DNA from: a virus
Strand: one strand, 5' to 3'
Virus record (IMG/VR): IMGVR_UViG_3300025570_000088
Span: 1 to 27,512 of that record
DNA length: 27,512 bases
The notes below the pieces were generated by a model. It had not been told where the DNA came from. It did no database searches and was given only the letters and a program-made list of their open reading frames with translations. Positions 1 to 25,437 of this stretch are shown here, piece after piece (the stretch's first letter is position 1; the number at the start of each line of letters is the position of its first letter). The position numbers and the translations under genes were made by a program.

Positions 1-51
1 AAATGTGAGTTCTGGGTTGTTGCTGGTGAATCGATCAATGTGGATTTTCAT
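1..51 (-). CDS. Partial small phage protein, N-terminus only
   Basis: An open frame starts with ATG at 51 and runs off the window edge after 17 codons (it begins MKIHIDRF). A strong GGAGGAG ribosome site lies just upstream, inside the end of the previous gene. The start overlaps that gene's TGA as TGATG, which implies translational coupling. Too little is present to assign a family. Confidence 0.6.
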   Translation of the reverse strand, partial: MKIHIDRFTSNNPELTF

Positions 52-266
52 CACTCACTCCTCCAATTAATCAACACTTGCAACAAATGCCATTCACCAT
101 GTGTCAGACTAAACTTCTCAACACCACTCTTGCGATCAATAACAATATCGTATCCTTCGCCGTTTGTCCACTCAGTGACTTCCATATAGTCATTGTCGCC
201 GCTCAGGTAGCAGTAACCTCTAAGTTCTGAGAATACTGTCCGTCTTTTATTTACTTTGATACTCAT
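51..266 (-). CDS. Small conserved-type phage protein, unknown function
   Basis: A 71-aa protein with no recognised enzyme motif. Its middle (DYMEVTEWTNGEGYDIVI) and end (SLTHGEWHLL) resemble small accessory proteins seen in other T4-like marine phages; this is from memory, not a search. A GTG three nucleotides upstream is in frame, but the ATG at 266 fits the GAGAGTGAGTG leader better. It is the first gene after the sigma-70 promoter at 297-325, so it is probably early. Its last codons carry the ribosome site of the next gene. Confidence 0.75.
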   Translation of the reverse strand: MSIKVNKRRTVFSELRGYCYLSGDNDYMEVTEWTNGEGYDIVIDRKSGVEKFSLTHGEWHLLQVLINWRSE

Positions 267-296
267 CACTCACTCTCTTCATTTGATTAGGGTACT

Positions 297-325
297 ATTA
301 TATCAAGAAAGCGAGAGGTTGTCAA
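297..325 (-). promoter_or_regulatory. Perfect sigma-70 promoter, cassette copy 1
   Basis: On the minus strand TTGACA (325-320) and TATAAT (302-297) are separated by 17 nt. It drives the 71-aa gene starting at 266. The -10 region and early transcript (TTGATATAATAGTACC) are nearly identical to the promoters at 5616 and 5878, so the three form one repeated early-promoter cassette. Confidence 0.93.
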
Positions 326-342
326 CAGTTTAACCATTTATC

Positions 343-750
343 TCATGAATGTTCGTCATCACTCAGGATTATACCATCTTGAATTTCGTAGTAGGTCTTG
401 GTATGATTGAAGTCGTTGTTTTCTAACCACTCTTCTTCGTCATCCCAATCATCAGTGTCAAGTGCTTCATCCATCTTCTCGGTGTCGCCCATCGAATCTT
501 CGGAGCATACATCATACACTGAATCAAATTCCCATTCTGAAAACTCGTCAATCTGAATATCTTCGCCTTCTAGTGCTGCCTGAAGTGTATCACATTCGTC
601 CCAGTCTTGAGGCGTGATAAAGAATGCGCCATTCCGATATACCTGTTCTAACCAGATTTCATCACCATTCTCATGCTGATAGTTCTCTGAGACTCTTACA
701 CACTTTTTGTTTGCCGCTTCAATCTTATAGGTCTTATCTGGTACTATCAT
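343..750 (-). CDS. Acidic hypothetical phage protein
   Basis: A 135-aa very acidic protein. The N-terminal half looks folded (YKIEAANKKCVRV, NGAFFITPQDW). The region around residues 85-120 is an Asp/Glu-rich stretch (TDDWDDEEEWLENND). An upstream in-frame ATG at 759 exists, but the ATG at 750 is better spaced from the purine-rich GAGAAG. The gene overlaps the end of the preceding gene, so the two are co-transcribed. Such acidity could fit a DNA mimic or an inhibitor of a DNA-binding host protein, but that is speculation. No family is recognised with confidence. Confidence 0.75.
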   Translation of the reverse strand: MIVPDKTYKIEAANKKCVRVSENYQHENGDEIWLEQVYRNGAFFITPQDWDECDTLQAALEGEDIQIDEFSEWEFDSVYDVCSEDSMGDTEKMDEALDTDDWDDEEEWLENNDFNHTKTYYEIQDGIILSDDEHS

Positions 751-1108
751 GCTTCTCATTCTCTACAAATATTTTAAGGGTTTGTCCATCATCTTGTACA
801 GAATGTGATACACTCTCTAATCCATAACCAAGATAAGAACGTCCATCATCATCAATGACTTCTACTCGGGTCACATCTTTCCATTCATGCTCAGAGGGAT
901 ATTCGAACCTTTCTTCGTCAGTTACAATCTCAATATGTTCATTGGGTTTTATACAGTAACCTGTCGCCTGCAAGAAATACTTAAACTGTTCTAGCATATC
1001 ATGTAGAGGAACATCACGATCAGTAATAGAAAACTCTATGTGATTGTTGACCGAACTGCCTAGATCACACTCATACGGTGTAGATATAAATTGGTAGTAA
1101 GGTTTCAT
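734..1108 (-). CDS. Hypothetical phage protein
   Basis: A 124-aa protein containing a segment (VPLHDMLEQFKYFLQATGY) of a kind found in many unknown proteins of tailed phages, where a short helix precedes FLxAxGY. No catalytic motif is visible. The start overlaps the stop of the upstream gene as ATGA, so it is translationally coupled. It belongs to the run of small accessory genes from metK to the left edge. Confidence 0.78.
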   Translation of the reverse strand: MKPYYQFISTPYECDLGSSVNNHIEFSITDRDVPLHDMLEQFKYFLQATGYCIKPNEHIEIVTDEERFEYPSEHEWKDVTRVEVIDDDGRSYLGYGLESVSHSVQDDGQTLKIFVENEKHDSTR

Positions 1109-1392
1109 TTAGTATAGTCCTCGATCAAAGTTATTCCAATCTCAGTAAGACGCTCTTCGCTTATGTCACTAAGGCATTCATTATCTTCTCGAAACATTTC
1201 GATTGCCTCTTCTTTATCAGATAATACTCTATGAGATGTTATCATTTCACCTAAATGCTCCTGAGAAAACTCTTTCGCTTCCTCCATAACTACAGTATCC
1301 AGCGCCCACTCTTTCGGATCATTGTCATTCAATTCGACACAATATCTCATACGATAGGTGCTGATACAATCAACCATAACAAACTTACTCAT
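1105..1392 (-). CDS. Hypothetical phage protein
   Basis: A 95-aa acidic protein. It has a mixed alpha/beta pattern with a block KEFSQEHLGEMITSHRVLS, which resembles a small family I associate with T4-like cyanophages (DTV...KEFSQ...GE.I). Function is unknown. The start is supported by GGGGAG a few bases upstream, in the last codons of the preceding gene, which it overlaps by 8 nt. Confidence 0.78.
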   Translation of the reverse strand: MSKFVMVDCISTYRMRYCVELNDNDPKEWALDTVVMEEAKEFSQEHLGEMITSHRVLSDKEEAIEMFREDNECLSDISEERLTEIGITLIEDYTK

Positions 1393-1588
1393 TAGGTTCT
1401 CCCCACACTTCTGATAAATGTTCTTGTGATAATTCCATATAGTATGCGCCAGGATAATGTCTTAGGCATCGATACGCTTGCTTTCTTACTTCACTCGGCA
1501 CTCTAGGTGTTGATTTCGGGTTCAATAAGTCTAACAAAAACTGTCTAGTATTATTAACTGCCCAGGTTCTTTCACATGGCATTGTCAT
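1385..1588 (-). CDS. BPSL0761-like protein, unknown function
   Basis: A 67-aa protein whose pattern MTMPxERTxAVxxTRxFL...TPRVPxxVRxxAxxxLRHYP matches the small BPSL0761 family known from proteobacterial chromosomes. The ERT, TR-FL and LRHYP blocks are visible at residues 6-8, 14-18 and 42-46. No biochemical role is established for the family. The start is strongly supported by GGAGGT eight bases upstream, inside the dCMP deaminase gene, which it overlaps by 17 nt. The recognition is from memory and would need a profile search. Confidence 0.8.
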   Translation of the reverse strand: MTMPCERTWAVNNTRQFLLDLLNPKSTPRVPSEVRKQAYRCLRHYPGAYYMELSQEHLSEVWGEPNE

Positions 1589-2027
1589 ACTGAATTACCT
1601 CCACACCACAATCAATTAGAAACTGCTTGCCGCTGCCCTTACTTGCAACATACTCGGTATCAACATAGACGGTATCGATACCACTCTGATATATTAACTT
1701 AGCACATTCCATGCAAGGAGTGTGAGTACAGAATAGAGTTGCACCTTTACTTGATTCGGAACTACGTGCAACCTTGGTGATTGCATTCGCTTCAGCATGA
1801 AGAACTTCGGGTCGCGACTTAGTATAGGATTTCTCTCTACCAAATTCATTTGCGTAAACTTGATGTTCACACACATTATCCCAACCTGAAGGCATACCAT
1901 TATAACCAATAGAAATGATACGATCATCTTTTACAATGATCGCTCCCACTTGTAATCTCTTTGCAGTGCTTAACTGTGCAAATCTATGTGCAGTATCCAT
2001 ATATGCTTTCACGAACTTTTCTTTCAT
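1572..2027 (-). CDS. cd: dCMP deaminase
   Basis: A 151-aa zinc-dependent cytidylate deaminase, close in length to the family. It converts dCMP to dUMP for dTTP synthesis during phage replication. The zinc and catalytic sites are intact: HAE at about residues 77-79 (His ligand, catalytic Glu) and PCxxC at about 104-108 (two Cys ligands). The block GYNGMPSGWDN is typical of the dCMP rather than the free-nucleoside branch. A GTG three codons upstream is in frame, but the ATG at 2027 is better spaced from AGGTG. It starts one base after the metK stop, so the two are co-expressed. Confidence 0.95.
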   Translation of the reverse strand: MKEKFVKAYMDTAHRFAQLSTAKRLQVGAIIVKDDRIISIGYNGMPSGWDNVCEHQVYANEFGREKSYTKSRPEVLHAEANAITKVARSSESSKGATLFCTHTPCMECAKLIYQSGIDTVYVDTEYVASKGSGKQFLIDCGVEVIQYDNAM

Positions 2028-2028
2028 A

Positions 2029-3144
2029 TTATTCACCTAAGTCTAAATCAAGTCTTTCCCATGGTAAGTCTGCTTTGCCGAAATGACCATAGTTAGTAGT
2101 AAGTTCTAATTGTAACATAAACAGGTCGAACTTGTCAATGATTCCTTTTGGTGTTAGGTCAACTTTTTCACGAATCAATGCCGCTAGATCGTTTCTAATC
2201 TTACCGTCAGCAAATACGTGTAGACTTGTTGGTTCTTTCACACCAATCGCATAACTTAATTGAACAGTACAAGTGTCAGCAAAGGTTGAGGCAACAATGT
2301 TTTTAGCAAGATATCTCGCCATATATGCACCACTTCTATCGACTTTAGTACAGTCTTTACCGCTAAACGCTCCACCTCCGTGCGGTGCGTACCCTCCGTA
2401 GGTGTCTACGATGATCTTTCGACCAGTTACGCCTGTATCACCATCTGGACCACCAATGATGAATCTACCAGTCGGATTGATTAAGAACTCTGTATCTTCA
2501 TCGAAGTAACCAGTAATTGCCCGCTTGACAATCTGGGTGATGAACGTCCGAATAATATCGAATGGATAGTCTTCTGTGTGTTGACTACTACAAACAACTT
2601 TACTAATGCGTAGAGGAGTGCCATCATCGCTGTACTCCATCGTCACCTGTGCTTTAGCATCAGGACCCAGATATTCAGCACGACCACTCTTTCGCTCTTC
2701 GGTCAATAGTTGAAGTATCTTGTGACTGTGATATATCGCACTCGGCATATAGTCTTCGGTCTCGGTACACGCATAACCAAACATCAAACCCTGATCGCCA
2801 GCACCAAAGTCATCAGTGCCTAAAGCAATATCAGGACTCTGTCCATGAATAAGATTGACAACCTCTAGCGTATCCCAATGAAAATTATCTTGCTCGTAAC
2901 CAATGTCTGCCACAACACTACGAACAATACTCTCAATTGTGTGCCGAGTTTTCATCGACATAGGATTAGCACTCTTGTATTCGCCTGCAACTACCACTGT
3001 ATTGCTAGTCACCAGGGTTTCGATTGCCGCACGATTGTTTGGGTTCTTATCAATAAGAAAACTTGCGATACTATCAGATATAAGATCCGCTATTTTATCT
3101 GGATGTCCTTCGCTAACACTCTCACTGGTAAACTCATAACTCAT
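2029..3144 (-). CDS. metK: S-adenosylmethionine synthetase (MetK)
   Basis: A 371-aa, essentially full-length methionine adenosyltransferase (the bacterial enzyme is about 384 aa), making S-adenosylmethionine from methionine and ATP. The family blocks are intact: FTSESVSEGHPDK near the N-terminus with the catalytic His, GAGDQGLMFGYA in the middle, and the glycine-rich phosphate loop GGGAFSGKD. An ATG at 3153 is in frame, but AAGGA sits directly against it and is correctly spaced for the ATG at 3144, giving the usual MSYEFTSESV start. MetK is rare in phages. It precedes dCMP deaminase, and two SAM-dependent methyltransferase genes occur elsewhere in this window. There is no sign of decay. Confidence 0.97.
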   Translation of the reverse strand: MSYEFTSESVSEGHPDKIADLISDSIASFLIDKNPNNRAAIETLVTSNTVVVAGEYKSANPMSMKTRHTIESIVRSVVADIGYEQDNFHWDTLEVVNLIHGQSPDIALGTDDFGAGDQGLMFGYACTETEDYMPSAIYHSHKILQLLTEERKSGRAEYLGPDAKAQVTMEYSDDGTPLRISKVVCSSQHTEDYPFDIIRTFITQIVKRAITGYFDEDTEFLINPTGRFIIGGPDGDTGVTGRKIIVDTYGGYAPHGGGAFSGKDCTKVDRSGAYMARYLAKNIVASTFADTCTVQLSYAIGVKEPTSLHVFADGKIRNDLAALIREKVDLTPKGIIDKFDLFMLQLELTTNYGHFGKADLPWERLDLDLGE

Positions 3145-3253
3145 ATTCTTCATCCTTACTTTTTATTTTATCTATTAGATACAACAATTCCTCTATTGAT
3201 TGTTGATCTCCTTCGTTATTAGTGTCTATCTCGATTTCCATTTTGATGATCAT
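3134..3253 (-). CDS. Small acidic ORF upstream of metK
   Basis: A 39-codon open frame running from an ATGA overlap with the previous gene into the first codons of metK. The product is acidic and protein-like (IEIDTNNEGDQQSIEELL). There is no strong ribosome site, so translation would rely on coupling; an internal ATG at 3241 is an alternative start. It fills an otherwise empty gap in a densely packed operon. No family is assigned. Confidence 0.5.
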   Translation of the reverse strand: MIIKMEIEIDTNNEGDQQSIEELLYLIDKIKSKDEEYEL

Positions 3254-3450
3254 ACACTGTACCAAGACCTTACTAAAGTCAGTGCAGAGATATACTCTTG
3301 CATGTGTACAGCATCTTTTGCTTGATCGTCATCGAATATCGCTAGACCACCATTAGTAATATTTTCTTCGAAGTCTTCAATCTGGCGCGTCAACTCTTGG
3401 ACCATGATAACATCGACCTGTTCTGGTTCTAACTCAATATTAATCGACAT
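3250..3450 (-). CDS. Small conserved-type phage protein, unknown
   Basis: A 66-aa acidic protein. It has a helical segment (QVDVIMVQELTRQIEDF) and a C-terminus ending in LVRSWYS. This helix-gap-helix pattern resembles small unknown proteins in other T4-like phages. AAGGTG is well placed upstream of the ATG. It overlaps the co-chaperonin gene by 11 nt and is probably co-translated with it. No function is proposed. Confidence 0.78.
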   Translation of the reverse strand: MSINIELEPEQVDVIMVQELTRQIEDFEENITNGGLAIFDDDQAKDAVHMQEYISALTLVRSWYSV

Positions 3451-3718
3451 CGAGAATCACCTTAACATGTTCGTAATGAACAACCGCTAACTTTACACCA
3501 TCACTTTCAAATGGCATTGCTTTAGTCCAATCAAGAATCACTTTGATTCCCGGAACAATAAAATCACAACCACCGCCTACAGACACAACTTCACCAGGTT
3601 TATTACCCGTTGTAATATCACCTGTGAGAATAATACCACTCGCCAATTCAGTATCTGGCGCTGCCACTTCCTTTACTACTACAAAATTATTTAACGCTAA
3701 AATTTTACTCATCATCAT
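3440..3718 (-). CDS. GroES/gp31-like co-chaperonin
   Basis: A 92-aa protein with GroES-type organisation. It has an N-terminal beta segment (NNFVVVKE), a mobile loop SGIILTG around residues 27-33 that matches the GroEL-binding GGIVLTG loop of GroES (IIL in place of IVL), then GEVVSVG and a C-terminal segment with HYEHVKVIL. In T4 the equivalent gp31 replaces host GroES so that GroEL can fold the major capsid protein; the same role is likely here but inferred. Three tandem ATGs (3718, 3715, 3712) leave the exact start open. The upstream membrane ORF ends inside this gene. Confidence 0.87.
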   Translation of the reverse strand: MMMSKILALNNFVVVKEVAAPDTELASGIILTGDITTGNKPGEVVSVGGGCDFIVPGIKVILDWTKAMPFESDGVKLAVVHYEHVKVILDVD

Positions 3719-3812
3719 CTTCTCTTAAATCAAATGCTAACCATGCGAACAACAGAACAGTAAAAAATACGATTCCTATATTATGTCCACTACCTAAATC
3801 ACCCAGTTCCAT
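3705..3812 (-). CDS. 35-aa single-pass membrane peptide
   Basis: A short ORF starting at an ATG embedded in the end of the upstream gene (ATG overlapping its last codons), with AAGGA about 9 nt upstream. The product has a polar N-terminus, a clear hydrophobic segment (IGIVFFTVLLFAWLAF, residues 12-27) and an acidic tail. It ends inside the start of the co-chaperonin gene. It is likely a small inner-membrane protein of unknown role. Confidence 0.65.
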   Translation of the reverse strand: MELGDLGSGHNIGIVFFTVLLFAWLAFDLREDDDE

Positions 3813-3996
3813 CACTCTCGTCCTTCTCATCTTCAACTGATTTTCTCGTGTACGCTACAGGATCACGGAAGAACGACCTTTCGTCTTCATCTAAAATTTC
3901 TTCCCAGTATGCTCTACAAAACCATTTCATGAAAAGTACAAACTTATACGAGCAATAGATTACGATGGGCACCATAACCCAATCCATAACACTCAT
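3799..3996 (-). CDS. Small membrane-anchored protein
   Basis: A 65-aa protein with an N-terminal hydrophobic helix (VMVPIVIYCSYKFVLFM, about residues 7-23), then basic and aromatic residues and a charged cytoplasmic-type tail. GGAGG precedes the ATG and is itself part of the last codons (RRV) of the UDP-glucose-dehydrogenase-like gene, so translation is coupled. The family is unknown. It pairs with the next 35-aa membrane peptide. Confidence 0.75.
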   Translation of the reverse strand: MSVMDWVMVPIVIYCSYKFVLFMKWFCRAYWEEILDEDERSFFRDPVAYTRKSVEDEKDESDGTG

Positions 3997-3998
3997 TA

Positions 3999-4805
3999 TT
4001 ATACCCTCCTATTTCTACTATTTGCTTCAATTACATTTTCTAGGAACGTCATATCAGTTCCCAAATCATTTCCCACTTCTAACATCGCGCTCATGTCTTT
4101 GGGGAAACAATGTCCACCGTAACCGAACTCGCCATCAGGACCAGGCACTTGTGTGTGAGAGTCAGATACTCTCGGATCTAAACATAACGCATCAATAATA
4201 CAATCATAGTCTGCGCCACCATCGCCATGACTGCCACCTCTATAATCATCGAGTACTTGCCACATCTGATTAAAGAATGATACTTTGGTTGCCAGATAAC
4301 AGTTGAGGAAGTATTTGGTGAATGCTGCCTGAGATGCTGTACTCAAGAATCGAACATCTTTCAGATTAGGCATAACTGGTTTAAGCAGTTCGTGCCAATA
4401 TCTCATCTCACCACCACCGTAGACCGCAAACTCTGAATCCGTGAAGTCTTTGAGATAGTTGAAACTAGTCGTACCACGAATGTACTCAGGACTAAATGTG
4501 ATGTTTTCATCACGAGAGTCAAAGAAGACTGGATCAGTTGTTGACTTCACCAAATACTTTGTACCGCCATACTTAGCAAACACCTCTTCTAATGCAGTCG
4601 TATCACACTTGCCGTCATCTCCCTGAGGAGTAGCAACACACACGATTACACCTTCGACGATTACATCCTCATCGACATAGAGACCCTTGTAAGGATCATC
4701 GATAAGAAGTTCAATCTTAGGATGTTCTTTTAGTGCCGCGTGTATCGCTTGACCTACTGGACCATAACCAGCAATTATAATTTTCTTTTTCAATTTATTC
4801 GTCAC
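3999..4805 (-). CDS. UDP-glucose 6-dehydrogenase-like protein with catalytic motifs
   Basis: A 268-aa member of the UDP-glucose/GDP-mannose dehydrogenase family, which oxidises sugar nucleotides to uronic acids with NAD. It keeps the NAD loop GYGPVG near residue 15, the substrate-site SPEY, the Lys/Asn helix (TKYFLNCYLATK) and the catalytic GGHCFPKD with Cys near residue 233. It ends about 35 residues after this Cys. The C-terminal sugar-nucleotide domain of standard enzymes (about 400 aa or more) is therefore missing, and the substrate is uncertain. The ORF opens with GTG at 4805; a TTG at 4793 is better spaced from AGGTG and would give a start at MKKKIII. A degenerate relative lies at 10729-11727. 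Confidence 0.88.
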   Translation of the reverse strand: MTNKLKKKIIIAGYGPVGQAIHAALKEHPKIELLIDDPYKGLYVDEDVIVEGVIVCVATPQGDDGKCDTTALEEVFAKYGGTKYLVKSTTDPVFFDSRDENITFSPEYIRGTTSFNYLKDFTDSEFAVYGGGEMRYWHELLKPVMPNLKDVRFLSTASQAAFTKYFLNCYLATKVSFFNQMWQVLDDYRGGSHGDGGADYDCIIDALCLDPRVSDSHTQVPGPDGEFGYGGHCFPKDMSAMLEVGNDLGTDMTFLENVIEANSRNRRV

Positions 4806-4944
4806 CTAGAAAGTTCTCTATTTTGTCGCCGCCTACATTATCTATATTGGTGCTTAATCTGTACAAATGCTTGAGCAAATAGTAATACGTGTCCCAGATT
4901 AACATGGGTAGAAAAATCATTATAACTTTATGTTGTCGTTTCAT
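4795..4944 (-). CDS. 49-aa small membrane-type ORF
   Basis: A short ORF that starts at an ATGA overlap with the 28-aa ORF before it and ends at the start of the dehydrogenase-like gene. The product has a basic N-terminus (MKRQHK), a hydrophobic stretch (VIMIFLPMLIW) and a Tyr-rich segment followed by an acidic tail. It fits a single-pass membrane peptide. The stop/start chaining supports real translation. Function is unknown. Confidence 0.55.
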   Translation of the reverse strand: MKRQHKVIMIFLPMLIWDTYYYLLKHLYRLSTNIDNVGGDKIENFLGDE

Positions 4945-5027
4945 AATAAACCACCCGCCTTAAGAACCCACATTGCACCATAACCAATCATAAAACCAAC
5001 ACTAAATCTAATTATCGTACTAATCAT
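4941..5027 (-). CDS. 28-aa hydrophobic micro-protein
   Basis: A very short ORF, mostly hydrophobic (begins MISTIIRFSVGFMIGYG). It is joined at both ends by ATGA overlaps to neighbouring small ORFs. AAGGA lies about 7 nt upstream of its ATG. It is probably a membrane micro-protein. The support is the overlap pattern, the ribosome site and the composition. Confidence 0.55.
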   Translation of the reverse strand: MISTIIRFSVGFMIGYGAMWVLKAGGLL

Positions 5028-5173
5028 GATACATCCTTTTCATAGATTTCAATATTCTCAGCAGGAACATTCAGCGCAATCAAGTTGCGCTTCATCTGCT
5101 CGGGATCTGCTACGTTCCACACAATGTGTCTCTCACCTAAACTATCAGTCCATTCGAGATTCATCACGTACAT
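5024..5173 (-). CDS. 49-aa hypothetical protein
   Basis: A short ORF starting one base after the stop of the conserved gene at 5175-5579. The product is soluble and acidic, with a protein-like pattern (LEWTDSLGERHIVWNVAD, then NVPAENIEIYE). The next ORF overlaps its stop as ATGA. No separate strong ribosome site is seen, so re-initiation from the upstream gene is likely. The family is unknown. Confidence 0.6.
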   Translation of the reverse strand: MYVMNLEWTDSLGERHIVWNVADPEQMKRNLIALNVPAENIEIYEKDVS

Positions 5174-5174
5174 T

Positions 5175-5579
5175 TTATGCCGCCTTCTTCAGTTCAAGGG
5201 GAGTATAGATGTAAGGAGTGTTGTAGGTTCCAACATTCATAGAGAGGTAGTGACTGACGTGGAAGTAATCAGTCATTGCATCAGATTCATCGAAGAAGTC
5301 TGGTCCTTTCATCGCATCTTTCAGTTCAGTCAGGAACGCAACAACAGTGGCATCATCATAGTTCTCTTTGATCCAGTGTTCGTTGACTTGAATGTAATCA
5401 CGCGGTCCGTACTCACTGACAGGCAAAGCACCGAGGATGTCTAACGCACCACTCTTGATGTTTACAACCAAAACGCTGTGGTGACGAACGGCAATGCTAC
5501 CTTTCATGTTGTACTTCTTGAGGACTGCTTTGATAGCAGGAGCGAATTCTTTTTTCATTTCTTGACTTACATACGCCAT
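5175..5579 (-). CDS. Conserved phage protein of unknown function
   Basis: A 134-aa protein beginning MAYVSQEMKKEFAPAIKAVL, a pattern I recognise from a family widespread in tailed phages and some mobile elements. Other family-like blocks are SIAVRHHSVLVVNI and DAMTDYFHVSHYLSMNVG. No catalytic role is known to me. An in-frame ATG two codons upstream exists, but GAGAG is spaced correctly only for the ATG at 5579. It has its own perfect sigma-70 promoter at 5616-5644, so it is probably made early and strongly. Confidence 0.85.
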   Translation of the reverse strand: MAYVSQEMKKEFAPAIKAVLKKYNMKGSIAVRHHSVLVVNIKSGALDILGALPVSEYGPRDYIQVNEHWIKENYDDATVVAFLTELKDAMKGPDFFDESDAMTDYFHVSHYLSMNVGTYNTPYIYTPLELKKAA

Positions 5580-5615
5580 AATCATATCTCTCAGTAATCG
5601 TTCGAATCAGGTGCT

Positions 5616-5644
5616 ATTATATCAATGTTTGCTTGGTATGTCAA
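5616..5644 (-). promoter_or_regulatory. Perfect sigma-70 promoter, cassette copy 2
   Basis: TTGACA (5644-5639), a 17-nt spacer and TATAAT (5621-5616) on the minus strand. It lies immediately after the 65-aa gene and drives the conserved gene at 5175-5579. From the -10 through the leader to the GAGAGAT ribosome site it matches the promoter at 5878. Confidence 0.94.
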
Positions 5645-5646
5645 CA

Positions 5647-5844
5647 CTATCCACATTTATTTAATGAATAGTCATCATTCATAGAATTTATATATCGATC
5701 AAGAATAATCGCGGTCTCCAGTGCATTGGTGATGCGCATGTACTCACTGTTGTAGTACGTTTTGTTGTATGCAGGAATACCTTCCATACCTTCGATAAGC
5801 ATCATTAAGTCATTACATAAGTTACTGATTTCACTATTAAACAT
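5647..5844 (-). CDS. Small hypothetical early protein
   Basis: A 65-aa mostly helical protein (EISNLCNDLMMLIEGMEG, then NALETAIILDRYINSM). An upstream in-frame TTG exists, but the ATG at 5844 follows GAGAG at correct spacing, exactly as in the sister cassette gene. It is a single-gene unit with its own promoter upstream (5878-5906), and the next promoter begins right after its stop. The family is unknown. Confidence 0.75.
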   Translation of the reverse strand: MFNSEISNLCNDLMMLIEGMEGIPAYNKTYYNSEYMRITNALETAIILDRYINSMNDDYSLNKCG

Positions 5845-5877
5845 AATTACATCTCTCAATCAATCGAATCAGGTGCT

Positions 5878-5906
5878 ATTATATCAAAAAAGGGAACCGC
5901 TGTCAA
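5878..5906 (-). promoter_or_regulatory. Perfect sigma-70 promoter nested in a terminator, cassette copy 3
   Basis: TTGACA (5906-5901), 17 nt, TATAAT (5883-5878) on the minus strand, driving the 65-aa gene. The -35 hexamer lies in the loop of the terminator hairpin at 5886-5916, and the terminator's T-run forms part of the spacer. The transcript start region (ATAGCACCTGATTCGA) is the same as in copy 2. Confidence 0.93.
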
Positions 5907-5916
5907 CAGTTCCCTT
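5886..5916 (-). terminator. Intrinsic terminator overlapping a promoter
   Basis: An 8-bp stem (AAGGGAAC at 5916-5909 pairing with GTTCCCTT at 5897-5890, minus-strand reading) with an 11-nt loop, followed by T residues to 5886. It ends the operon of the WYL_2-like gene. The same bases carry the -35 and part of the spacer of the next promoter. Confidence 0.85.
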
Positions 5917-5945
5917 AGATTGTTTTATTATAACAACATAACTTC

Positions 5946-6203
5946 TTATGCTTCGGGCGGATAACCCTTGTACCAGTCAGTCACAGTATCAACTCTGAAA
6001 GAACGCCACGCTTCTTTGTCTAATGACCAGACTGCGTAGTGATCACTCTCGGACTTCTGCTCTAGTATCTCAGGTACATTATCTTGAGACAATGCTCGAT
6101 TAAGGGTGCATGGCATGATTCTTGTGCCACCATCATTAATCTTCTCGAACTGAACTGTAACTACACCTTCTTGTGCTGCTTTTAAAAACTCATCTTTATT
6201 CAT
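5946..6203 (-). CDS. WYL_2/DUF2693-type SH3-barrel protein
   Basis: An 85-aa protein with the pattern VVTVQFEKINDGGTRIMPCTL followed at the end by VWSLDKEAWRSFRVDTV. This is the signature I associate with the Sm/SH3-barrel family WYL_2 (DUF2693), common in T4-like phages. T4-like members have no firmly established function; the fold suggests nucleic-acid or protein binding. It overlaps the MazG-like gene as ATGA and is the last gene before the terminator at 5886-5916. Confidence 0.75.
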   Translation of the reverse strand: MNKDEFLKAAQEGVVTVQFEKINDGGTRIMPCTLNRALSQDNVPEILEQKSESDHYAVWSLDKEAWRSFRVDTVTDWYKGYPPEA

Positions 6204-6499
6204 AAATCACTCTCTTTAACAAATATACCATCAACCATTCGACCCTTACGATCCTTAATATCATAATATGCAACATCTAAACAATGCTCTAATGATAAAC
6301 CATTACGCACTGCGATGTTAATCAATACTACCATGATATCACCAATATCATCTGCTACGTCTTTATTCTTACACACGTTGTCAGACAATTCACCCACTTC
6401 TTGGATCAACTTACATACTTGATCCTTGTCACTAGCACCATTAATCAGATTTCGATCTATGTGCCACTGCTTCACTTGCTCTATTCTTTTCTCTATCAT
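6200..6499 (-). CDS. MazG-like nucleotide pyrophosphohydrolase
   Basis: A 99-aa single-domain MazG-type protein. The metal-binding acidic residues are present as EVGE (about residues 34-37) and DDIGD (about 50-54), separated by a short helix linker as in the family. It would hydrolyse NTPs/dNTPs to monophosphates. In phages MazG is thought either to clean the nucleotide pool or to act on the (p)ppGpp response, but direct evidence varies. The start has GAGG at good spacing. It overlaps the next gene as ATGA. Confidence 0.87.
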   Translation of the reverse strand: MIEKRIEQVKQWHIDRNLINGASDKDQVCKLIQEVGELSDNVCKNKDVADDIGDIMVVLINIAVRNGLSLEHCLDVAYYDIKDRKGRMVDGIFVKESDL

Positions 6500-6608
6500 T
6501 TACTGCCTCATCATATATTTTAGATTGGTTTTCTTTTCTTTCCATTAAATCCCATACCGATCGCTGTTTTCTCTGTAGTGTCCTTACTTGAGCGGTCTTT
6601 AAACGCAA
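6441..6608 (-). CDS. Possible small basic ORF overlapping mazG
   Basis: A 55-codon frame opening with TTG, preceded by AAGGAG at the end of the upstream gene. The product is highly charged and helical (LQRKQRSVWDLMERKE). It fills an otherwise unused gap of about 110 nt and then overlaps the start of the MazG-like gene by 59 nt in another frame. ATG at 6545 is an alternative start. The long overlap and non-ATG start keep confidence low. Confidence 0.4.
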   Translation of the reverse strand: MRLKTAQVRTLQRKQRSVWDLMERKENQSKIYDEAVNDREKNRASEAVAHRSKSD

Positions 6609-6612
6609 TGTA

Positions 6613-6855
6613 CTAATCTCCTTGGTAGATTTTCTTTAAGTGTTTTTCGAACTCTTCTACTTTGTCCGTTCTGTTTGGCCAGTAGATGTAATCCTTTTCT
6701 GGGTTTTTCTTTAAGTTCTCTAACAATGGTAGAATGCCATTATACAACATATCTAACCTTTTTGCAACCAAAATCTCTCTTTCATTTGCAACAGTTACAG
6801 TTTCAAGTTCATCCTCTGTAACTGCTGTGAATCCAAAATCGAATATGTCACTCAC
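6613..6855 (-). CDS. Small conserved T4-like phage protein, unknown
   Basis: An 80-aa protein ending in a pattern I recognise from many T4-like marine phages: LPLLENLKKNPEKDYIYWPNR followed by a helix ending LKKIYQ. The N-terminus (FDFGFTAVTEDEL) also fits that group. Function is unknown. It overlaps the upstream gene as ATGA, and its last codons (GGA GAT) form the ribosome site for the next frame. Confidence 0.8.
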   Translation of the reverse strand: MSDIFDFGFTAVTEDELETVTVANEREILVAKRLDMLYNGILPLLENLKKNPEKDYIYWPNRTDKVEEFEKHLKKIYQGD

Positions 6856-7271
6856 TTCGCTAATTCCTTTTCAAGAAATGCTTTGCCTACTCTATCCCAC
6901 TCTTGAGGCGAAACATCATTCAAGGATCTAGCATCAGTTAAGTTATAATTAAGATCAGGTACAGCATAATCATAGTCATCTTCAACCATAGTTTCTTCTG
7001 AGTGTATGCGATCATGTTCATACAGTGCAAGAAATCCGTAATGGATAATCTTTACAATATCTTTGCGGTGGTCTGCGGGTTCACCCTTCTTACCATATCG
7101 ACCATTGTACTTGTCAACATTACCAAGAAAGAATCCAATACCATGACCACGATCAACGATTACTTCGCTCGACTGTAATCCGCCCTGTCCATAATGACCA
7201 CCATAAGTCTGGTCAATATACTTCATGAACTCAGCAATCAGTTCGTCTTCTCTAAATTTATAGTTCGGCAT
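6852..7271 (-). CDS. DUF3310-like protein
   Basis: A 139-aa protein with IDQTYGGHYG, then GFFLGNVDKYNGRYGKKG and DHRKDIVKIIHYGFLAL. This order (HY...GN..KY..R.G.K...D..K..HY) resembles the DUF3310 family of phage proteins, which has no established activity. The longest frame opens at a TTG (7286), but the ATG at 7271 has GAGGTG at ideal spacing, so the shorter form MPNYKFRED is chosen. The gene overlaps the end of the peroxiredoxin gene by 14 nt. Confidence 0.75.
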   Translation of the reverse strand: MPNYKFREDELIAEFMKYIDQTYGGHYGQGGLQSSEVIVDRGHGIGFFLGNVDKYNGRYGKKGEPADHRKDIVKIIHYGFLALYEHDRIHSEETMVEDDYDYAVPDLNYNLTDARSLNDVSPQEWDRVGKAFLEKELAK

Positions 7272-7782
7272 TTTTACACACCTCAATTAACATGGTCTGT
7301 GCATCTGATACTTCAAATGGGTCAGTTGGACACAGGTCACCGAATCCTTTCTCTTCAAACATTTTAGTGATTTTCATATCTTGAACTAGCATAGAGTATC
7401 TCCAAGAACGTTTGCCGAATCCAAGATTAGATTTGTCAACTAACACTCCTAGACTCTCTGCGAAGTCACCGTTTCCATCAGGCAACATCTTAACATTCTC
7501 GATACCGAGATTCTTTGCCCACTGGAACATACTGAAAGCATCGTTCACCGAGGTGCACCACACTTCATCAATACCCGCTTCCATGAACTCATTATAAAGT
7601 CCCTCATAACCCGGTAGTTGCTCATTAGAACAGGTTGGCGTAAATGCACCTGGTAGACCAAAGACTATTACATTCTTACCTGCAAATAAATCTTTGCTGG
7701 TTTTGTAAGACCACTCGAATGGATTACCATTACCGTTGTCTACTCTTTCTCTCATATAAAACATTGTATCTGGGACTAACAT
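7258..7782 (-). CDS. Peroxiredoxin (Prx5-like)
   Basis: A 174-aa thiol peroxidase that would reduce hydrogen peroxide or organic peroxides. The peroxidatic Cys lies in GLPGAFTPTCSNEQLPGYE (Cys about residue 51), the block typical of the Prx5 type. A conserved Arg is present in GKRSWRYSML. Other Cys residues, including one about 5 residues from the C-terminus, could resolve the disulfide. The longest frame starts at 7821, but AGGAA precedes the ATG at 7782 correctly and removes the overlap with the previous gene; family members also start near VPDxxF. Peroxiredoxins are unusual phage cargo and may protect the infected cell from oxidative stress. Confidence 0.92.
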   Translation of the reverse strand: MLVPDTMFYMRERVDNGNGNPFEWSYKTSKDLFAGKNVIVFGLPGAFTPTCSNEQLPGYEGLYNEFMEAGIDEVWCTSVNDAFSMFQWAKNLGIENVKMLPDGNGDFAESLGVLVDKSNLGFGKRSWRYSMLVQDMKITKMFEEKGFGDLCPTDPFEVSDAQTMLIEVCKNAEL

Positions 7783-7795
7783 AATATAATTCCTA

Positions 7796-7999
7796 TTAAT
7801 TAATTTTTCTATCGTTTCCATCGTAATCAGTAATGAACATGTTCAGGTCATCATCGACTTCGATACTCTTTGCTTTAAATAATGTAAGCAGGGACTGCCA
7901 TACGTCTGACATCCCCTCCCTTACTCCTACTGCTTTACCAATATAAAATGATACTGCCATGCTACCGATTGCTAATAATGTATGTAATACTGGATCCAT
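7796..7999 (-). CDS. Small membrane protein after gp41
   Basis: A 67-aa protein with one N-terminal membrane segment (HTLLAIGSMAVSFYIGKAVG, about residues 5-24) and a charged C-terminal tail. A much longer frame is open, but AGGAG directly after the gp41 stop is spaced for the ATG at 7999 (or 8005), so the upstream frame is rejected. A small membrane protein right after the helicase gene is a recurring arrangement in marine T4-like phages, to my knowledge without a known role. Membrane tethering of replication is one idea. Confidence 0.75.
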   Translation of the reverse strand: MDPVLHTLLAIGSMAVSFYIGKAVGVREGMSDVWQSLLTLFKAKSIEVDDDLNMFITDYDGNDRKIN

Positions 8000-8009
8000 T
8001 TTCATTCTC

Positions 8010-9377
8010 CTAGAACATTTTGATTCCGGATAAGTTCTTACCGCCCGGTGTACTCGTCTGAGGAACATCATCAGTTAGATTCTGCTCTGACGGATCAATA
8101 TCATATAGACGCATCTTAGAGCGATCAACACCAATCACGAAACGCTTTTCGACGTTAGGATCATTGTACCGATTCTTCAATTGCTTTACCATGATTTGGT
8201 TAAGACTAGACAATTCTTCGTTGCTAATCAATGCGAACATTAGATCAGCGGTTGCAGGTAGTCCGAACGATTCACTTGTATCTTCAAGACCAGGGTCAGA
8301 GTTACCGAATCCTGATCGTGTAGTCTGAGTAGCAGACATGATAGGAACGTTAAACTCTACAGCAAGACCGCGTAACTCTTCTGCGATTGCTTTAATATAT
8401 GTATAAGAGTTGATTGCTCCACCCATGCTCTTCATTCTCGCACTCGCGCATATGTTCAAGTAGTCAATGAATATTATATCAGGAACGAACTTCTTTTTCA
8501 ACTTTAATTCATTCAGCAGTGCTCGGAAGTGACCACTGTGTGCCGCACCAGTCGGATACTCTTTAATGATCAACTTACCATTAGTACCTGATGCAACTTT
8601 ATTGACCCTATCACTGAACATCTTCTGTGACATATTTTCTAACTGGTCAATAGGAACGTTCAGTAAGTTGGCATCGATACGCTCTGCGATACGTTCTTCT
8701 GCCATCTCCATAGTGATGTATAGAGCATTGCGTCCTTGTGCTAGTGCATTAGCGGCAACATGACACATGAACAGAGACTTACCAACACCAGTACCAGCAA
8801 GACAGATATTCAGCGTCTTATTAGGTAAACCACCCTTCGTGATAGTATTGAACTGTGACAAGTCGAAAGGTAGACGCTCTTCTTGCTCGTGGTAAAAGTT
8901 ATAACGACCATCAACATCTTCGAGATAATCATGACCCACATTGTTATCAAAACATACTGATAGTGCTTCAGTGAGAATATCAGGAAGTGCATCTTTAGTA
9001 AACGTCTGGTGTTTACCATCAATGACCGCAATCGATTCCATGATAGCAAGATATACAGCACGATCTTGACACCATTTCTCGGTAGACTCTAGCAACCAAT
9101 CTTCATTCTCAGGTGAGTAAGTGAAGATGGTTGGAAGAATGTCCATCGCATGAGTGTAAGTTTGTTCGGTGAATAAATCACATTGGTCAATTTCAATCTT
9201 GAATGATTCGATAGTAGGTAACGCATTGAACCTACTAACGAACTTAGTGACTTCAGTGAACAATAAAGAGTAAACACCTTCGAAGTACTCTTTTTTCAGA
9301 TGAGGAATAACTTTACGCAAGTAAGGTTCATTCGTCAACAAGTTTCTTAATATAGTTTGTTCTAAGTCAATCTTCAA
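8010..9377 (-). CDS. 41: gp41-like replicative DNA helicase
   Basis: A 455-aa DnaB-family helicase (T4 gp41 is 475 aa). It unwinds the fork 5' to 3' on the lagging strand and normally works with a primase. An N-terminal helical domain (about 1-150) is followed by the RecA-like motor. The Walker A motif GTGVGKS is at 195-201, the Walker B block is IIFIDYLNI, and the DnaB-type GRGLA-equivalent region is TQTTRSGFGNSD. It starts 2 nt after the 104-aa gene and is in the same operon as uvsX. Confidence 0.96.
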   Translation of the reverse strand: MKIDLEQTILRNLLTNEPYLRKVIPHLKKEYFEGVYSLLFTEVTKFVSRFNALPTIESFKIEIDQCDLFTEQTYTHAMDILPTIFTYSPENEDWLLESTEKWCQDRAVYLAIMESIAVIDGKHQTFTKDALPDILTEALSVCFDNNVGHDYLEDVDGRYNFYHEQEERLPFDLSQFNTITKGGLPNKTLNICLAGTGVGKSLFMCHVAANALAQGRNALYITMEMAEERIAERIDANLLNVPIDQLENMSQKMFSDRVNKVASGTNGKLIIKEYPTGAAHSGHFRALLNELKLKKKFVPDIIFIDYLNICASARMKSMGGAINSYTYIKAIAEELRGLAVEFNVPIMSATQTTRSGFGNSDPGLEDTSESFGLPATADLMFALISNEELSSLNQIMVKQLKNRYNDPNVEKRFVIGVDRSKMRLYDIDPSEQNLTDDVPQTSTPGGKNLSGIKMF

Positions 9378-9379
9378 TT

Positions 9380-9694
9380 CTATTCCTCAGAGTCAGGGTC
9401 ACCTAACTGTAGTTGTCCTTCTTGTGCTGCCGTCTCTAGTATACTTTCTAGTATAGCGCCAGCGTGTTCTTGCATGTCAACATCAGTTTCATCAATGTTG
9501 CCAGGAGTTGATTGTATCACAAAACTGAAGTTTAAGCAACCATCTTCTGCATTAAATTTGATATTTCCATATCTTATTACAGTTTCGACGAATTGACCAG
9601 ACGTGAGACGTACATCCCACGCTTGGTCATTCAGTGCTTCAGTACCATCAGCAGGGATCAACTCATAGTCAGTCCCTTCTACCATAACATTCAT
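9380..9694 (-). CDS. Unknown conserved-type protein between uvsX and gp41
   Basis: A 104-aa acidic protein. It has a beta-rich first half (YGNIKFNAEDGCLNFSFVI) and a helical second half (MQEHAGAILESILETAAQEG) with an acidic tail. A protein of this shape occurs beside uvsX/gp41 in marine T4-like phages as I remember them. The position between recombinase and helicase suggests a replication accessory role, but no domain is recognised. The start overlaps the uvsX stop as TAATG with GGAGG upstream. Confidence 0.82.
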   Translation of the reverse strand: MNVMVEGTDYELIPADGTEALNDQAWDVRLTSGQFVETVIRYGNIKFNAEDGCLNFSFVIQSTPGNIDETDVDMQEHAGAILESILETAAQEGQLQLGDPDSEE

Positions 9695-10725
9695 TACCCC
9701 TCCTCGATCAATGCGTCAAGGTCAATCTCCGATCGCTTACCGATACAGTAGGTCGATTCGACTAAATCTTGGAAACCTTTCTGATTAAGAATGTCTGCCC
9801 AGAACTCTGCGGTGAGAGTATCTTTCTGACGAACTTTAGTATCTTCACCTGCTTTCTGATACCAACCGTTAGATGGTTTAGTAACATAACCACCGCCAAG
9901 TGCGATGTCAAGTAGACCAGAATACTGTTCGATACCACCTTCCCATGATACCGTGATCGGAATCTTAGACTGCTCTTTAACATACCGAGACTTCTCTACT
10001 TTAACAATGAAGTCATAACCCATCACTTCTGTACCCGTCTTGTTCTGGCGACGACCGATGATCCAGATGTTATCAGCACTATAATAAATGCCAGTACCAC
10101 CGCCAACGATGTCTTTAGGGAACAAACCAATCTCTTTATAAGTGTGATTGATAGCAAGTAAAGGAATATTCTTCATGGTCAAGTAAGGAGTGGTCATACG
10201 GAACAGACCCTTCAATGCTTTAGCACGAGACATATCAGCAACAGATTTCTCATCAATAGCATCTTGAAGTTCTTTCTTGGACGCTAGGTTACCAATAGAA
10301 TCAATAACAATAATTACTTTATCTTTCTTCTCGATACTCTCAAGTTGACCAATCAAATCAAACTTCAGTTCTTCGACATTACGAATAGGAGTATGGAGTA
10401 CACGATCCACATCGATGCCGAATGCAGTGAAGTACGACTGCGGTGAACCAAACTCAGAATCATAGAACAACATGATCGCCTCAGGATCTGATTTCAGATA
10501 AGCAGAGGCAATCTTTAAAGCAAATGATGTCTTGAAGTGCTTCGATGGACCAGCAAGTACAGTCATGCCAGACACCAAACCACCATCAAGTTTACCTGAT
10601 AGTGCCACATTTAACATGGGCACATCAATAGAACACATCTCTTTCTCACCGAAGAACTCGGACTTGGACAACACATTGGTGCCCTTAATCTTTGAGTTCT
10701 TTTTCAATTTATCCATAACAGACAT
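9694..10725 (-). CDS. uvsX: UvsX recombinase (RecA family)
   Basis: A 343-aa T4-type RecA homologue (T4 UvsX is 391 aa; marine relatives are shorter) that catalyses strand invasion for recombination-dependent replication. The Walker A motif is GPSKHFKTS at 59-67, the UvsX-type variant rather than the RecA one. Walker B is VIIVIDSIGNL with Asp about 142. The stretch AINHTYKEIG and the DIVGGGTGIYYSADNIW region match the UvsX core. It starts 3 nt after the degenerate dehydrogenase-like gene and overlaps the next gene as TAATG. Confidence 0.96.
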   Translation of the reverse strand: MSVMDKLKKNSKIKGTNVLSKSEFFGEKEMCSIDVPMLNVALSGKLDGGLVSGMTVLAGPSKHFKTSFALKIASAYLKSDPEAIMLFYDSEFGSPQSYFTAFGIDVDRVLHTPIRNVEELKFDLIGQLESIEKKDKVIIVIDSIGNLASKKELQDAIDEKSVADMSRAKALKGLFRMTTPYLTMKNIPLLAINHTYKEIGLFPKDIVGGGTGIYYSADNIWIIGRRQNKTGTEVMGYDFIVKVEKSRYVKEQSKIPITVSWEGGIEQYSGLLDIALGGGYVTKPSNGWYQKAGEDTKVRQKDTLTAEFWADILNQKGFQDLVESTYCIGKRSEIDLDALIEEG

Positions 10726-10728
10726 ATA

Positions 10729-11727
10729 TTAATCCTTCAGATTTTTGTAGTTAATACATTCATCCAATAAGGGCAACTTATCAGACGTGCTTGCGAACAT
10801 ACGAACATCGTTCTCAAACTCACCACCAAATGATCGCGCTTGCTTGTAACTAATACCAGCATCAGTACGACCACGAATGAAAGTTGGGATCATTACAGAA
10901 CGATCATTAAGTTCTGGTGCTTTCTCAATCATACGACGAACGATAGATGGATTAGCACCACCGGTGTCCATAATTGCATCATGCAACTGATTAAAGTAGG
11001 TCTGCTTCACTGCTTTGAAACCCGCAATCGCCAATTTAGCATAAGCAACTTCAAAAATAGAACCTGTGACAAACTGTTGTGCAGAGAATATACTAGTGTG
11101 TGCCATAATCTTCATATGTTCTGGAATAACTGCTGGATCACCACCGAAGTATTCCACTTCAGGAGATAGAATGTTACCAATGTCAGTATCATCGCCTAAG
11201 ACAGGATTATACGTAACTTTCTTGATCATAACTTCATATGTTAATGCTTTGATTAGACGTTCAATAGTTTCAATATTGATGCTAGTCTTAATACATACAC
11301 CACTACCACAACCACGAATCAACTTATTAACTACATTGATAAGTTCAGCATCGTCCACCGAATCGTTCTTCAATAGCGGCACCGGAGTACATAAGAATGT
11401 GATCCCTGGTTTCCAATCAACTAGATCATCAATACCATCTAGTCCAGAAACGTGCATAGTATCTACAGACTTAACATCGAATGCTAATTGCATTGCTTGC
11501 GCAACCACATTGTCACCGACAACACCAATACGAATCTTCTGTGAATCACCGCCAGATTTTTTATCTGTCGCTTTATCTGCCGCCTGCTTTTCTAACTGTT
11601 GCGTCACTACTTCTCCCTTCCCCGCTTGAATCATTTCATACTGTTCTTCGGTCAACTGTTCTGAGTGAATGGTTGCATTCAACTCTTCTGTTCCGTCTAC
11701 CAATTCACCTTCGCTTATATCACTCAT
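10729..11727 (-). CDS. Degenerate UDP-glucose-dehydrogenase-like protein, likely pseudoenzyme
   Basis: A 332-aa protein. Residues 1-65 are acidic, Gln/Lys-rich and probably disordered. From about 66 the motif order of the dehydrogenase at 3999-4805 can be followed: Rossmann start RIGVVG, FLCTPVP, CIKTS, NPVLGDDTDIGNI, the helix AYAKLAIAGFKAVKQTYFNQ, and SFGGEFENDV. The functional residues are changed. The NAD loop GxGxxG reads GDNVVA, the catalytic Glu after NP is Val, and GGHCFPKD has become GGEFENDV, losing Cys and Lys. The frame is intact, the ribosome site (AAAGG) is good, and it sits inside the replisome operon beside uvsX. It looks maintained as a non-catalytic protein, perhaps structural or regulatory. 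The alignment is by eye. Confidence 0.8.
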   Translation of the reverse strand: MSDISEGELVDGTEELNATIHSEQLTEEQYEMIQAGKGEVVTQQLEKQAADKATDKKSGGDSQKIRIGVVGDNVVAQAMQLAFDVKSVDTMHVSGLDGIDDLVDWKPGITFLCTPVPLLKNDSVDDAELINVVNKLIRGCGSGVCIKTSINIETIERLIKALTYEVMIKKVTYNPVLGDDTDIGNILSPEVEYFGGDPAVIPEHMKIMAHTSIFSAQQFVTGSIFEVAYAKLAIAGFKAVKQTYFNQLHDAIMDTGGANPSIVRRMIEKAPELNDRSVMIPTFIRGRTDAGISYKQARSFGGEFENDVRMFASTSDKLPLLDECINYKNLKD

Positions 11728-11748
11728 ACATTTTTACCTTTCGTTAAA

Positions 11749-12693
11749 TTAATTATTTCTATATGCATATTCAACTGCTCGATCCGCTTCAACTTCTAGC
11801 GGTCTACTAGTATACCATTTTCCATTATCATTGTCAAGTTGTCTGCATAAATCTGCAACTTGCTTGGCAGTGATAGGATAACCTCGCTTGATTGCTGTAC
11901 CTGCTGTTGCAACCATTATTTGATACATCTTGTGATACCACCCACCCTCTGCGATCCCACCGTACTCTATGGCAAGACGCTTCGGAAAGAATGGACAGTC
12001 GCGATAATCTGTCCATGAGATGTTTGTTGTTGTCATTGAATTTTTACGATGCTCGATTACTGCTTTCTGCATTTCTTCGGGCAATCTATCTAGGAAAGAA
12101 TTGCCAGTCTTTGTAACGTATGGATGTTTACTTATAAGAGCATTAGGATCAATGCTATTACCACCAGAATGCTCGAAGAAAAAGTTAGTAGCACCAGGAT
12201 ACACCGCAGGAATATAATACATCCTTGCAAGATCCTTTGTTTGCGGGTCACCGATTTCTCCAATGTCGGTATTGAGGGCGTACCAAAATGACTTGATTTT
12301 ATCATTTTCGACAGGCGTTTCAATTCTGAAGACAAGACGGAACTTATAATAGTCAGCACGAGAACTAGCAGTACTATAACACACGAAATCCAGATCGCTA
12401 AATCGAGAGATAAGGTCATTCTTTAAAATGACCAAGTCAGGAGCGAAACTATGCTCATCAACATCAACTGCACACCAACCTCCCCAATATAAAGTATTGA
12501 CATTGCTACGTGTTGTACCTTCTGCGAAGATAGCGGGACTAATGAGTGCTGATGAGTTTTTACCACCTTTTTCTCCATGCTTAGTTGATAGACCTTTAAG
12601 CAGTCCGACGAACTCATCCCAAGTATCAAAAGATGCCTTGCGATGAGTCTTATTGTCGAATGCAGAATTAAATATTGTCAGTTCGTATTTCAT
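11749..12693 (-). CDS. Primase-like protein, archaeo-eukaryotic primase type
   Basis: A 314-aa protein with the order of motifs expected for archaeo-eukaryotic primase (AEP/prim-pol) domains. These are an acidic VDVDE (Asp77, Asp79), then YSTASSRADYYKFRLVFRI (about 106-124, the position of the sxH-like motif) and DPQTKDLARMYYIP (about 149-162, third acidic residue with Arg). The T4 primase gp61 is a TOPRIM/DnaG-type enzyme, so this would be a non-homologous substitute near helicase gp41. The C-terminal part (about 240-310) is helical and could be a PriCT-like module. The promoter -10 lies only 7 nt before the ATG, so the mRNA would be almost leaderless. The family call is by motif only. Confidence 0.65.
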   Translation of the reverse strand: MKYELTIFNSAFDNKTHRKASFDTWDEFVGLLKGLSTKHGEKGGKNSSALISPAIFAEGTTRSNVNTLYWGGWCAVDVDEHSFAPDLVILKNDLISRFSDLDFVCYSTASSRADYYKFRLVFRIETPVENDKIKSFWYALNTDIGEIGDPQTKDLARMYYIPAVYPGATNFFFEHSGGNSIDPNALISKHPYVTKTGNSFLDRLPEEMQKAVIEHRKNSMTTTNISWTDYRDCPFFPKRLAIEYGGIAEGGWYHKMYQIMVATAGTAIKRGYPITAKQVADLCRQLDNDNGKWYTSRPLEVEADRAVEYAYRNN

Positions 12694-12700
12694 AATATGT

Positions 12701-12729
12701 ATTATAACACAATTATTTTAAGGATGCAA
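12701..12729 (-). promoter_or_regulatory. Extended -10 promoter for the primase-like gene
   Basis: TTGCAT (12729-12724), 17 nt, TATAAT (12706-12701) on the minus strand, with TGTGT directly before the -10 (extended -10 TGn). The expected start point falls at about the ATG of the primase-like gene at 12693, giving a leaderless or nearly leaderless transcript. It shares TTGCAT and TGTGTTATAAT with the gp43 promoter. Confidence 0.82.
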
Positions 12730-12732
12730 CCA

Positions 12733-13320
12733 TTATTTTTTAAGTGTTAATAGACCCATTTGATTGGTCTGTGTCTTACCTTTAAACGTCTGGTCATAGT
12801 CGAACTCTTTAACTAGTTCATACTTGTCTTGTTTGTACACCGCAGATTTAACTGCCCTTTGATCCCAGTTGTCTATTAGTAGATTAGGAATTGCTAACTC
12901 ATAAATAACTTCCATGTCATAGAGTGCCGCCTGTTCTGCATGATTGCCATCAACCAGTGCAAAGTCGAAAACGTATTCGTCAATCAACTTATCTTTAACA
13001 TCCTTTGTTCTACCTGGAACCCAAGTGAATCTATTAATGTATAAGTCGTTGAGTATGCCTACCATATCTCGTCTAATTTGAGGATCAGTGCAATCACCTG
13101 GTTTACCAATACGTTCATTGTCAGGAGATACTCCTACAATTCTAGCATTTTTGTAAATGTCTAACTGGTAAGTAGTCGAATGTCCTATGTGAAATCCGAT
13201 CTCTAATACAGACTTTGGATTATAGTGTTCTTGCACAAACGTAAATGCGTCAAAGACCTGTTGAGTTGGTGGCATATAACCCCAACCAATATCAGGGAAT
13301 GACAGATGATCTAATTTCAT
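12733..13320 (-). CDS. Class I SAM-dependent methyltransferase (Methyltransf_24-like)
   Basis: A 195-aa Rossmann methyltransferase. The SAM-binding motif I is SVLEIGFHIGHST (Glu40, Gly42, Gly46). A later FALVDGNHAEQAALYDMEV (about 120-138) is typical of the Methyltransf_24 type, often linked to sugar or glycan methylation. The substrate is not predictable. Its start overlaps the gp43 stop as TAATG, so it is translated from the polymerase mRNA. Together with metK and the FkbM-type gene it makes a SAM-using set in this genome. Confidence 0.85.
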   Translation of the reverse strand: MKLDHLSFPDIGWGYMPPTQQVFDAFTFVQEHYNPKSVLEIGFHIGHSTTYQLDIYKNARIVGVSPDNERIGKPGDCTDPQIRRDMVGILNDLYINRFTWVPGRTKDVKDKLIDEYVFDFALVDGNHAEQAALYDMEVIYELAIPNLLIDNWDQRAVKSAVYKQDKYELVKEFDYDQTFKGKTQTNQMGLLTLKK

Positions 13321-25410: not shown

Positions 25411-25437
25411 TAAAGAAAAAGGTTGACATCCTTTCTC
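25411..25437 (-). terminator. Intrinsic terminator after the uvsW operon
   Basis: On the minus strand an 8-bp stem (GAGAAAGG 25437-25430 with CCTTTTTC 25422-25415, one G-U pair) and a 7-nt loop are followed by TTT and more A/T. It ends the uvsW plus 162-aa gene unit. On the plus strand one pair becomes A-C, so the hairpin favours minus-strand RNA. Confidence 0.75.

Follow-up and report, generated by a model that had tools for sequence, protein, structure and literature searches.

The window, a 27.5-kb virus record analysed here as one stretch of DNA, raises the question of whether the same few bases can end the RNA of one gene set and start that of the next. At positions 5916-5878 its minus strand reads AAGGGAACTGTTGACAGCGGTTCCCTTTTTTGATATAAT, 39 nt in which a promoter and a terminator-like hairpin are built on shared bases and which, judged from its letters, appears to perform both tasks. 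The first-pass annotation had described a terminator and a promoter nested in about 40 nt, giving no strand. The element lies on the minus strand, and three lines of evidence support the nesting: the sequence itself, changes in relatives that preserve the structure, and its recurrence among unrelated phages.

The window derives from a marine T4-like phage and encodes a DNA polymerase, clamp loader, UvsX, replicative helicase, SbcC-like nuclease subunit, DNA helicase, Hsp20 and MazG. The closest named DNA belongs to a Synechococcus phage, at ~70-78% over a short stretch. Every assigned gene lies on the minus strand, including the 85-aa gene ahead of the element, whose stop codon precedes the hairpin by 29 nt (Table 1).

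Geometry of the element and its surroundings

The promoter at 5916-5878 scores 12/12 against the sigma70-type consensus and carries a TG before the -10 hexamer; this assignment, like that of the terminator, is a consensus match. Its hexamers are 17 nt apart, within the 16-18 nt of sigma70-type promoters. The hairpin, centred on the -35 hexamer, comprises 8 Watson-Crick pairs (AAGGGAAC/GTTCCCTT) and, beyond them, four further pairs that include two G-U; with this extension the minimum-energy fold reaches 12 pairs around a 3-nt loop. It is a stable, GC-containing stem, with a folding energy of -16.5 kcal/mol (z = -3.8), and one of 200 shuffles was equally stable. As in an intrinsic terminator, a U-tract stands directly 3' of the stem (CCCTTTTTTGA, with two T of the T6 run lying within the stem), and a terminator scan picked out these bases too, as a stem of 12 pairs with TTTTGATA after it. 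The 8-bp hairpin proposed earlier is therefore present as the Watson-Crick part of a longer stem. Its assignment of TTGACA to the loop holds for the 8-bp reading, in which the hexamer lies entirely in an 11-nt loop, whereas in the full 12-pair fold TT and the last A are paired at the top of the stem. The T-run was correctly placed inside the promoter spacer.

Table 1. Coordinates of the nested element and neighbouring features in the window
Feature	Position	Strand	Remarks	Basis
MazG-like pyrophosphatase gene	6200-6499	-	same upstream unit as the 85-aa gene	
Upstream gene, 85 aa, phrog_1086 (unknown function)	5946-6203	-	last gene of the unit presumed to end at the hairpin	
Terminator-like hairpin, 12 pairs	5916-5890	-	centred on the -35 hexamer	fold; pairing kept in relatives
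-35 hexamer TTGACA	5906-5901	-	loop/top of the hairpin	consensus match
Promoter spacer, 17 nt	5900-5884	-		
T6 run (U-tract)	5891-5886	-	lies in the promoter spacer; T6-T7 in every close relative	
-10 hexamer TATAAT	5883-5878	-	TGA just before (extended -10)	consensus match
Downstream small gene, 65 aa	5647-5844	-	ATG at 5844; next after the element	
Next promoter, 12/12	5644-5616	-	hairpin-free internal control; precedes the 136-aa gene 5175-5585	

The next promoter, 262 nt further on, served as an internal control. It is equally perfect and yet folds with only -2.7 kcal/mol (z 0.5); the stem at 5916-5890 is therefore no by-product of the promoter type.

On the plus strand of the window, a 12/12 promoter (25423-25451) is followed by no gene in its own orientation and is directed, antisense, into the gene at 25496-25984(-). 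Opposite its -35 hexamer is the loop of a terminator-like hairpin on the minus strand (25437-25415), and a 12/12 promoter of that strand comes after the hairpin, at 25396-25368. A second promoter type, GTGT(T)ATAAT, often with a short ATAC palindrome around the -10 hexamer, occurs on the minus strand near 12715, 15817, 19677, 21443 and 25368 and differs from the GATATAATAG type found at 297, 5616 and 5878.

Chance expectation and conservation in relatives

To estimate how often such nesting would arise by chance, the promoter was held fixed and its flanks were simulated from first-order Markov models of the whole window or its intergenic sequence. Stems of seven or more pairs with a T-rich tail arose with a probability of 1-2e-3 per promoter, and those of 12 or more pairs with 0.7-2e-5. 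The window contains 12 promoters scoring at least 11/12, among which only that at 5916-5878 is nested. Terminator-like sites as such showed no excess in positions 1-14000 of the window (8 versus 6.4 in shuffles); the evidence therefore consists of geometry and conservation, not of the scan count.

Close relatives carry the element in two forms, one identical to that of the window and the other reading AAGCGAACTGTTGACAGCAGTTCGTTTTTTTG(C/T)TATAAT, and both promoter hexamers and their spacing are unchanged in all of them. The four hairpin differences of the second form comprise one full swap (G-C to C-G), one change from G-C to G-U and one from U-G to U-A, and all 12 pairs are kept. When four changes were placed at random outside the hexamer, the 12 pairs all survived in 0.7% of trials (P = 0.007). 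A shuffle control of the pair counter gave 174/500 for the window's lineage, whose three distinct rows (haplotypes) are too few for this control to be informative. The kept G-U pairs maintain pairing in RNA without maintaining a palindrome in DNA, and so fit an RNA stem.

The gene behind the element is swapped among these relatives: the window has a 65-70 aa ORF, whereas locus L005 and its kin have an unrelated 58-aa ORF (L005 2722-2898). Different small ORFs thus follow one terminator-promoter element, as if genes had been exchanged at the junction.

At greater distances the element is absent or different. Relatives at 90% protein identity (loci L008-L010) lack both the element and the small gene, and the element was not found downstream of distant kin of the 85-aa gene (loci L482-L498). 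Loci whose 136-aa protein is 76-79% identical have strong promoters, none of them nested. In the more distant locus L029, a different hairpin surrounds a weaker promoter (TTTACA, TATACT), just past its copy of the 136-aa gene.

Recurrence in viral and bacterial genomes

IMG/VR was scanned with the pattern TTGACA-N9-T6-N2-TATAAT, which ignores the stem, and matches were scored as nested when a hairpin of at least 7 pairs spanned the -35 hexamer and abutted the T-run. Upstream flanks exchanged between promoters served as the control. Among the matches listed, 21 of 104 distinct promoters were nested, against 1.85 in the control (max 6); across all viral loci examined with this pattern, including the window's site and its relatives, the count was 29/124 (23%) among the matches listed. 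A replicate pattern, with the T-run moved by one base and promoters already seen dropped, gave 34/57 (60%) among the matches listed (control 10.3, max 17). When A6 was substituted for T6, only 1/77 of the matches listed had a hairpin. The T6 and A6 sets differ with P = 3e-6 and 2e-15, values that overstate independence because related phages were counted separately. The matches listed fall into 23 groups by rough clustering, in which some relatives are still split.

Nesting was rarer in the other sets. Bacterial genomes scanned with the first pattern yielded 5/119 among the matches listed (control 1.1), strong viral promoters drawn from an independent pattern yielded 2/215 among the matches listed (control 0.5), and none was found in 50 kb each of T4, T5 and Syn9. 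Divergent gene starts were absent before nested sites (0/59, versus 11/107 and 8/75 in the comparison sets). Co-directional upstream gene ends showed no excess before nested sites relative to other T6 promoters (64% versus 65%).

Two further arrangements were observed during the survey. Loci L658 (6437-6450) and L158 (2695-2708) each have a divergent pair of nested promoters; the two -35 hexamers are the arms of a single palindrome, which is also the hairpin before the T-run. Near position 9016 of L084 and 734 of L094, a GC-rich 12-pair hairpin surrounds the -35 hexamer (GATGGCAGGGGAGTC-TTGACT-CCCCTGCCAT) and is followed by a poor T-run; either an operator or a weak terminator could account for it.

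The element recurs in Lactococcus phages. In the first 90 kb of phage WRP3 (Audreyjarvisvirus), 8/37 plus-strand promoters scoring at least 11/12 are nested; these sites lie in ~75-105 nt gaps between co-directional genes, and the stems differ at most of the eight. One family of sites was aligned across WRP3, 949, LW81, AM5 and P1048, with orthologues and paralogues mixed. In it, 98.9% of cells are paired and three pairs change on both sides; none of 500 shuffles reached its covariation score, and slid registers pair at 38-60%. At another site, compared between 949 and P1048, two full swaps and one single change leave all 13 pairs intact (P = 0.0012).

Many loci found with the replicate pattern share one conserved gene set. 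Two of them, L512 and L518, were compared with named phages and are closest to Synechococcus myoviruses. The element in these T4-like cyanophages precedes a small conserved gene, followed by a thymidylate-synthase-like gene and phoH. A hairpin is present in 15/16 orthologous sites, with differing stems in several registers, and two full swaps separate loci L502 and L549. Locus L531 has TTGACG as its -35 hexamer, the G of which is paired with the stem. In the same neighbourhood of the named phage S-SRM01 stands AGGAGGG-TTGATT-CCCTCCT-T6, with a weaker -10 hexamer. Automatic stem registers in L504, L535, L536 and L555 were discarded, as their purine-rich arms form G-U pairs with the U-run.

Several phage groups seem to have reached the nested junction separately. 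Because phages that are not related share the arrangement while their hairpin sequences differ, it appears to be a genetic part under selection that saves space.

Proposed mechanism, alternatives and known systems

We consider it likely that the site is a composite junction at which upstream transcription would end inside the promoter of the next unit, and we infer from the sequence that RNA would really end and start there. Polymerase arriving from the MazG/85-aa unit would produce an RNA with the hairpin folded at its end, stop at the U-tract that follows and release the RNA, as in intrinsic termination. A sigma70-type holoenzyme would use the same DNA, as duplex, for the promoter of the next unit, with the -35 hexamer at the hairpin top, the U-tract in the spacer and TATAAT thereafter. 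A stop codon, a terminator, a promoter and a ribosome site would thereby be packed into ~100 nt.

Compactness with no coupling is the simplest view of this layout and the one we hold most likely. A nested element that also couples the two functions, through promoter occlusion or polymerase recycling, is a less likely possibility. A polymerase that pauses at the U-tract necessarily overlaps the promoter; as it would cover much of it, termination could affect initiation. Transcription through the site might likewise block the promoter and set the order of expression, as the first-pass annotation proposed and the geometry allows. E. coli polymerase commonly remains on DNA after intrinsic termination, and such retention with restart at nearby promoters has been reported in vitro (PMC6978380; PMC11347151); restart is plausible in vivo but still lacks demonstration there (PMC11347151), and compactness alone already explains the layout. 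The stronger proposal, that polymerase halted at the U-run restarts with sigma on the next promoter at a high rate without leaving the DNA, seems unlikely. If true, such restart coupling would hand expression on from one phage unit to the next across a terminator-promoter distance of zero.

It is improbable that the hairpin, instead of terminating transcription, serves to stabilise an mRNA at its 3' end or to mark a processing site: a terminal hairpin is able to protect a message without polymerase release, but the T-run abutting the stem is conserved and required for the enrichment. Quite improbable, too, is a DNA operator over the -35 hexamer for a dimeric phage or host repressor, with the T-run incidental. 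The inverted repeat covers the -35 hexamer, the usual place for an operator, paired changes would equally preserve a DNA palindrome, and what look like phage operators do occur in loci L032 and L033, where palindromes such as GTAAGGATCCTTAC lie in the spacers of several strong promoters without a T-run. However, hairpins accompany T6 and not A6 (29/124 and 34/57 versus 1/77 among the matches listed), and several kept pairs are G-U, which give DNA no symmetry. Furthermore, an operator would be expected as a palindrome independent of the T-run, with a sequence shared by several sites, whereas the window holds one copy and the WRP3 stems mostly differ. Coincidence of a promoter and a hairpin is very improbable. 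That one of 12 strong window promoters is nested and that the element is missing from relatives at 90% protein identity would agree with it; the probability of ~2e-5 per promoter, the structure-preserving changes, and the enrichment and recurrence elsewhere argue against it.

The composite junction, as we favour it, resembles known elements in part. It shares with intrinsic (rho-independent) terminators a GC-containing stem with a U-tract directly after it, and is unlike them in that its loop and U-tract also make a complete sigma70-type promoter. Like T4-type early promoters, which are served by host sigma70, it places a strong TTGACA/TATAAT pair before small early-type genes; unlike them, it has a hairpin around the -35 hexamer, and none of the T4 promoters in 1-50000 scoring at least 11/12 is nested. 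In the E. coli frd/ampC region, neighbouring operons share regulatory DNA, with the terminator/attenuator positioned downstream of the ampC promoter and not around its -35 hexamer.

Our literature search returned recycling studies and T4-like genome papers, the latter predicting terminators and promoters separately, and did not find the form nested around the -35 hexamer; since it covered open-access literature only, this is absence of evidence. Annotation that calls the two signals apart will overlook the nested element, for which a hairpin around TTGACA with a U-run in the spacer offers a searchable rule for compact operon junctions. The element could also be a compact part for synthetic operons.

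Overlapping terminators and promoters are already known in phage T5 (AY543070), where a rho-independent terminator and the next promoter are annotated as overlapping between co-directional genes, for example P10a (27162-27235) and a terminator at 27219-27251. In the T5 cases examined, both hairpin and T-run precede the -35 region; at 5916-5878 the hairpin instead spans the -35 hexamer and the T-run lies in the spacer, a form that appears new within the open-access literature searched. In terminator-proximal recycling (PMC6978380, PMC6978322, PMC11347151), a terminator is closely followed by a separate promoter at which polymerase may restart; in the window's element the distance between the two is zero, which makes it a natural site for an in-cell test of terminated RNA polymerase restarting at an adjoining promoter.
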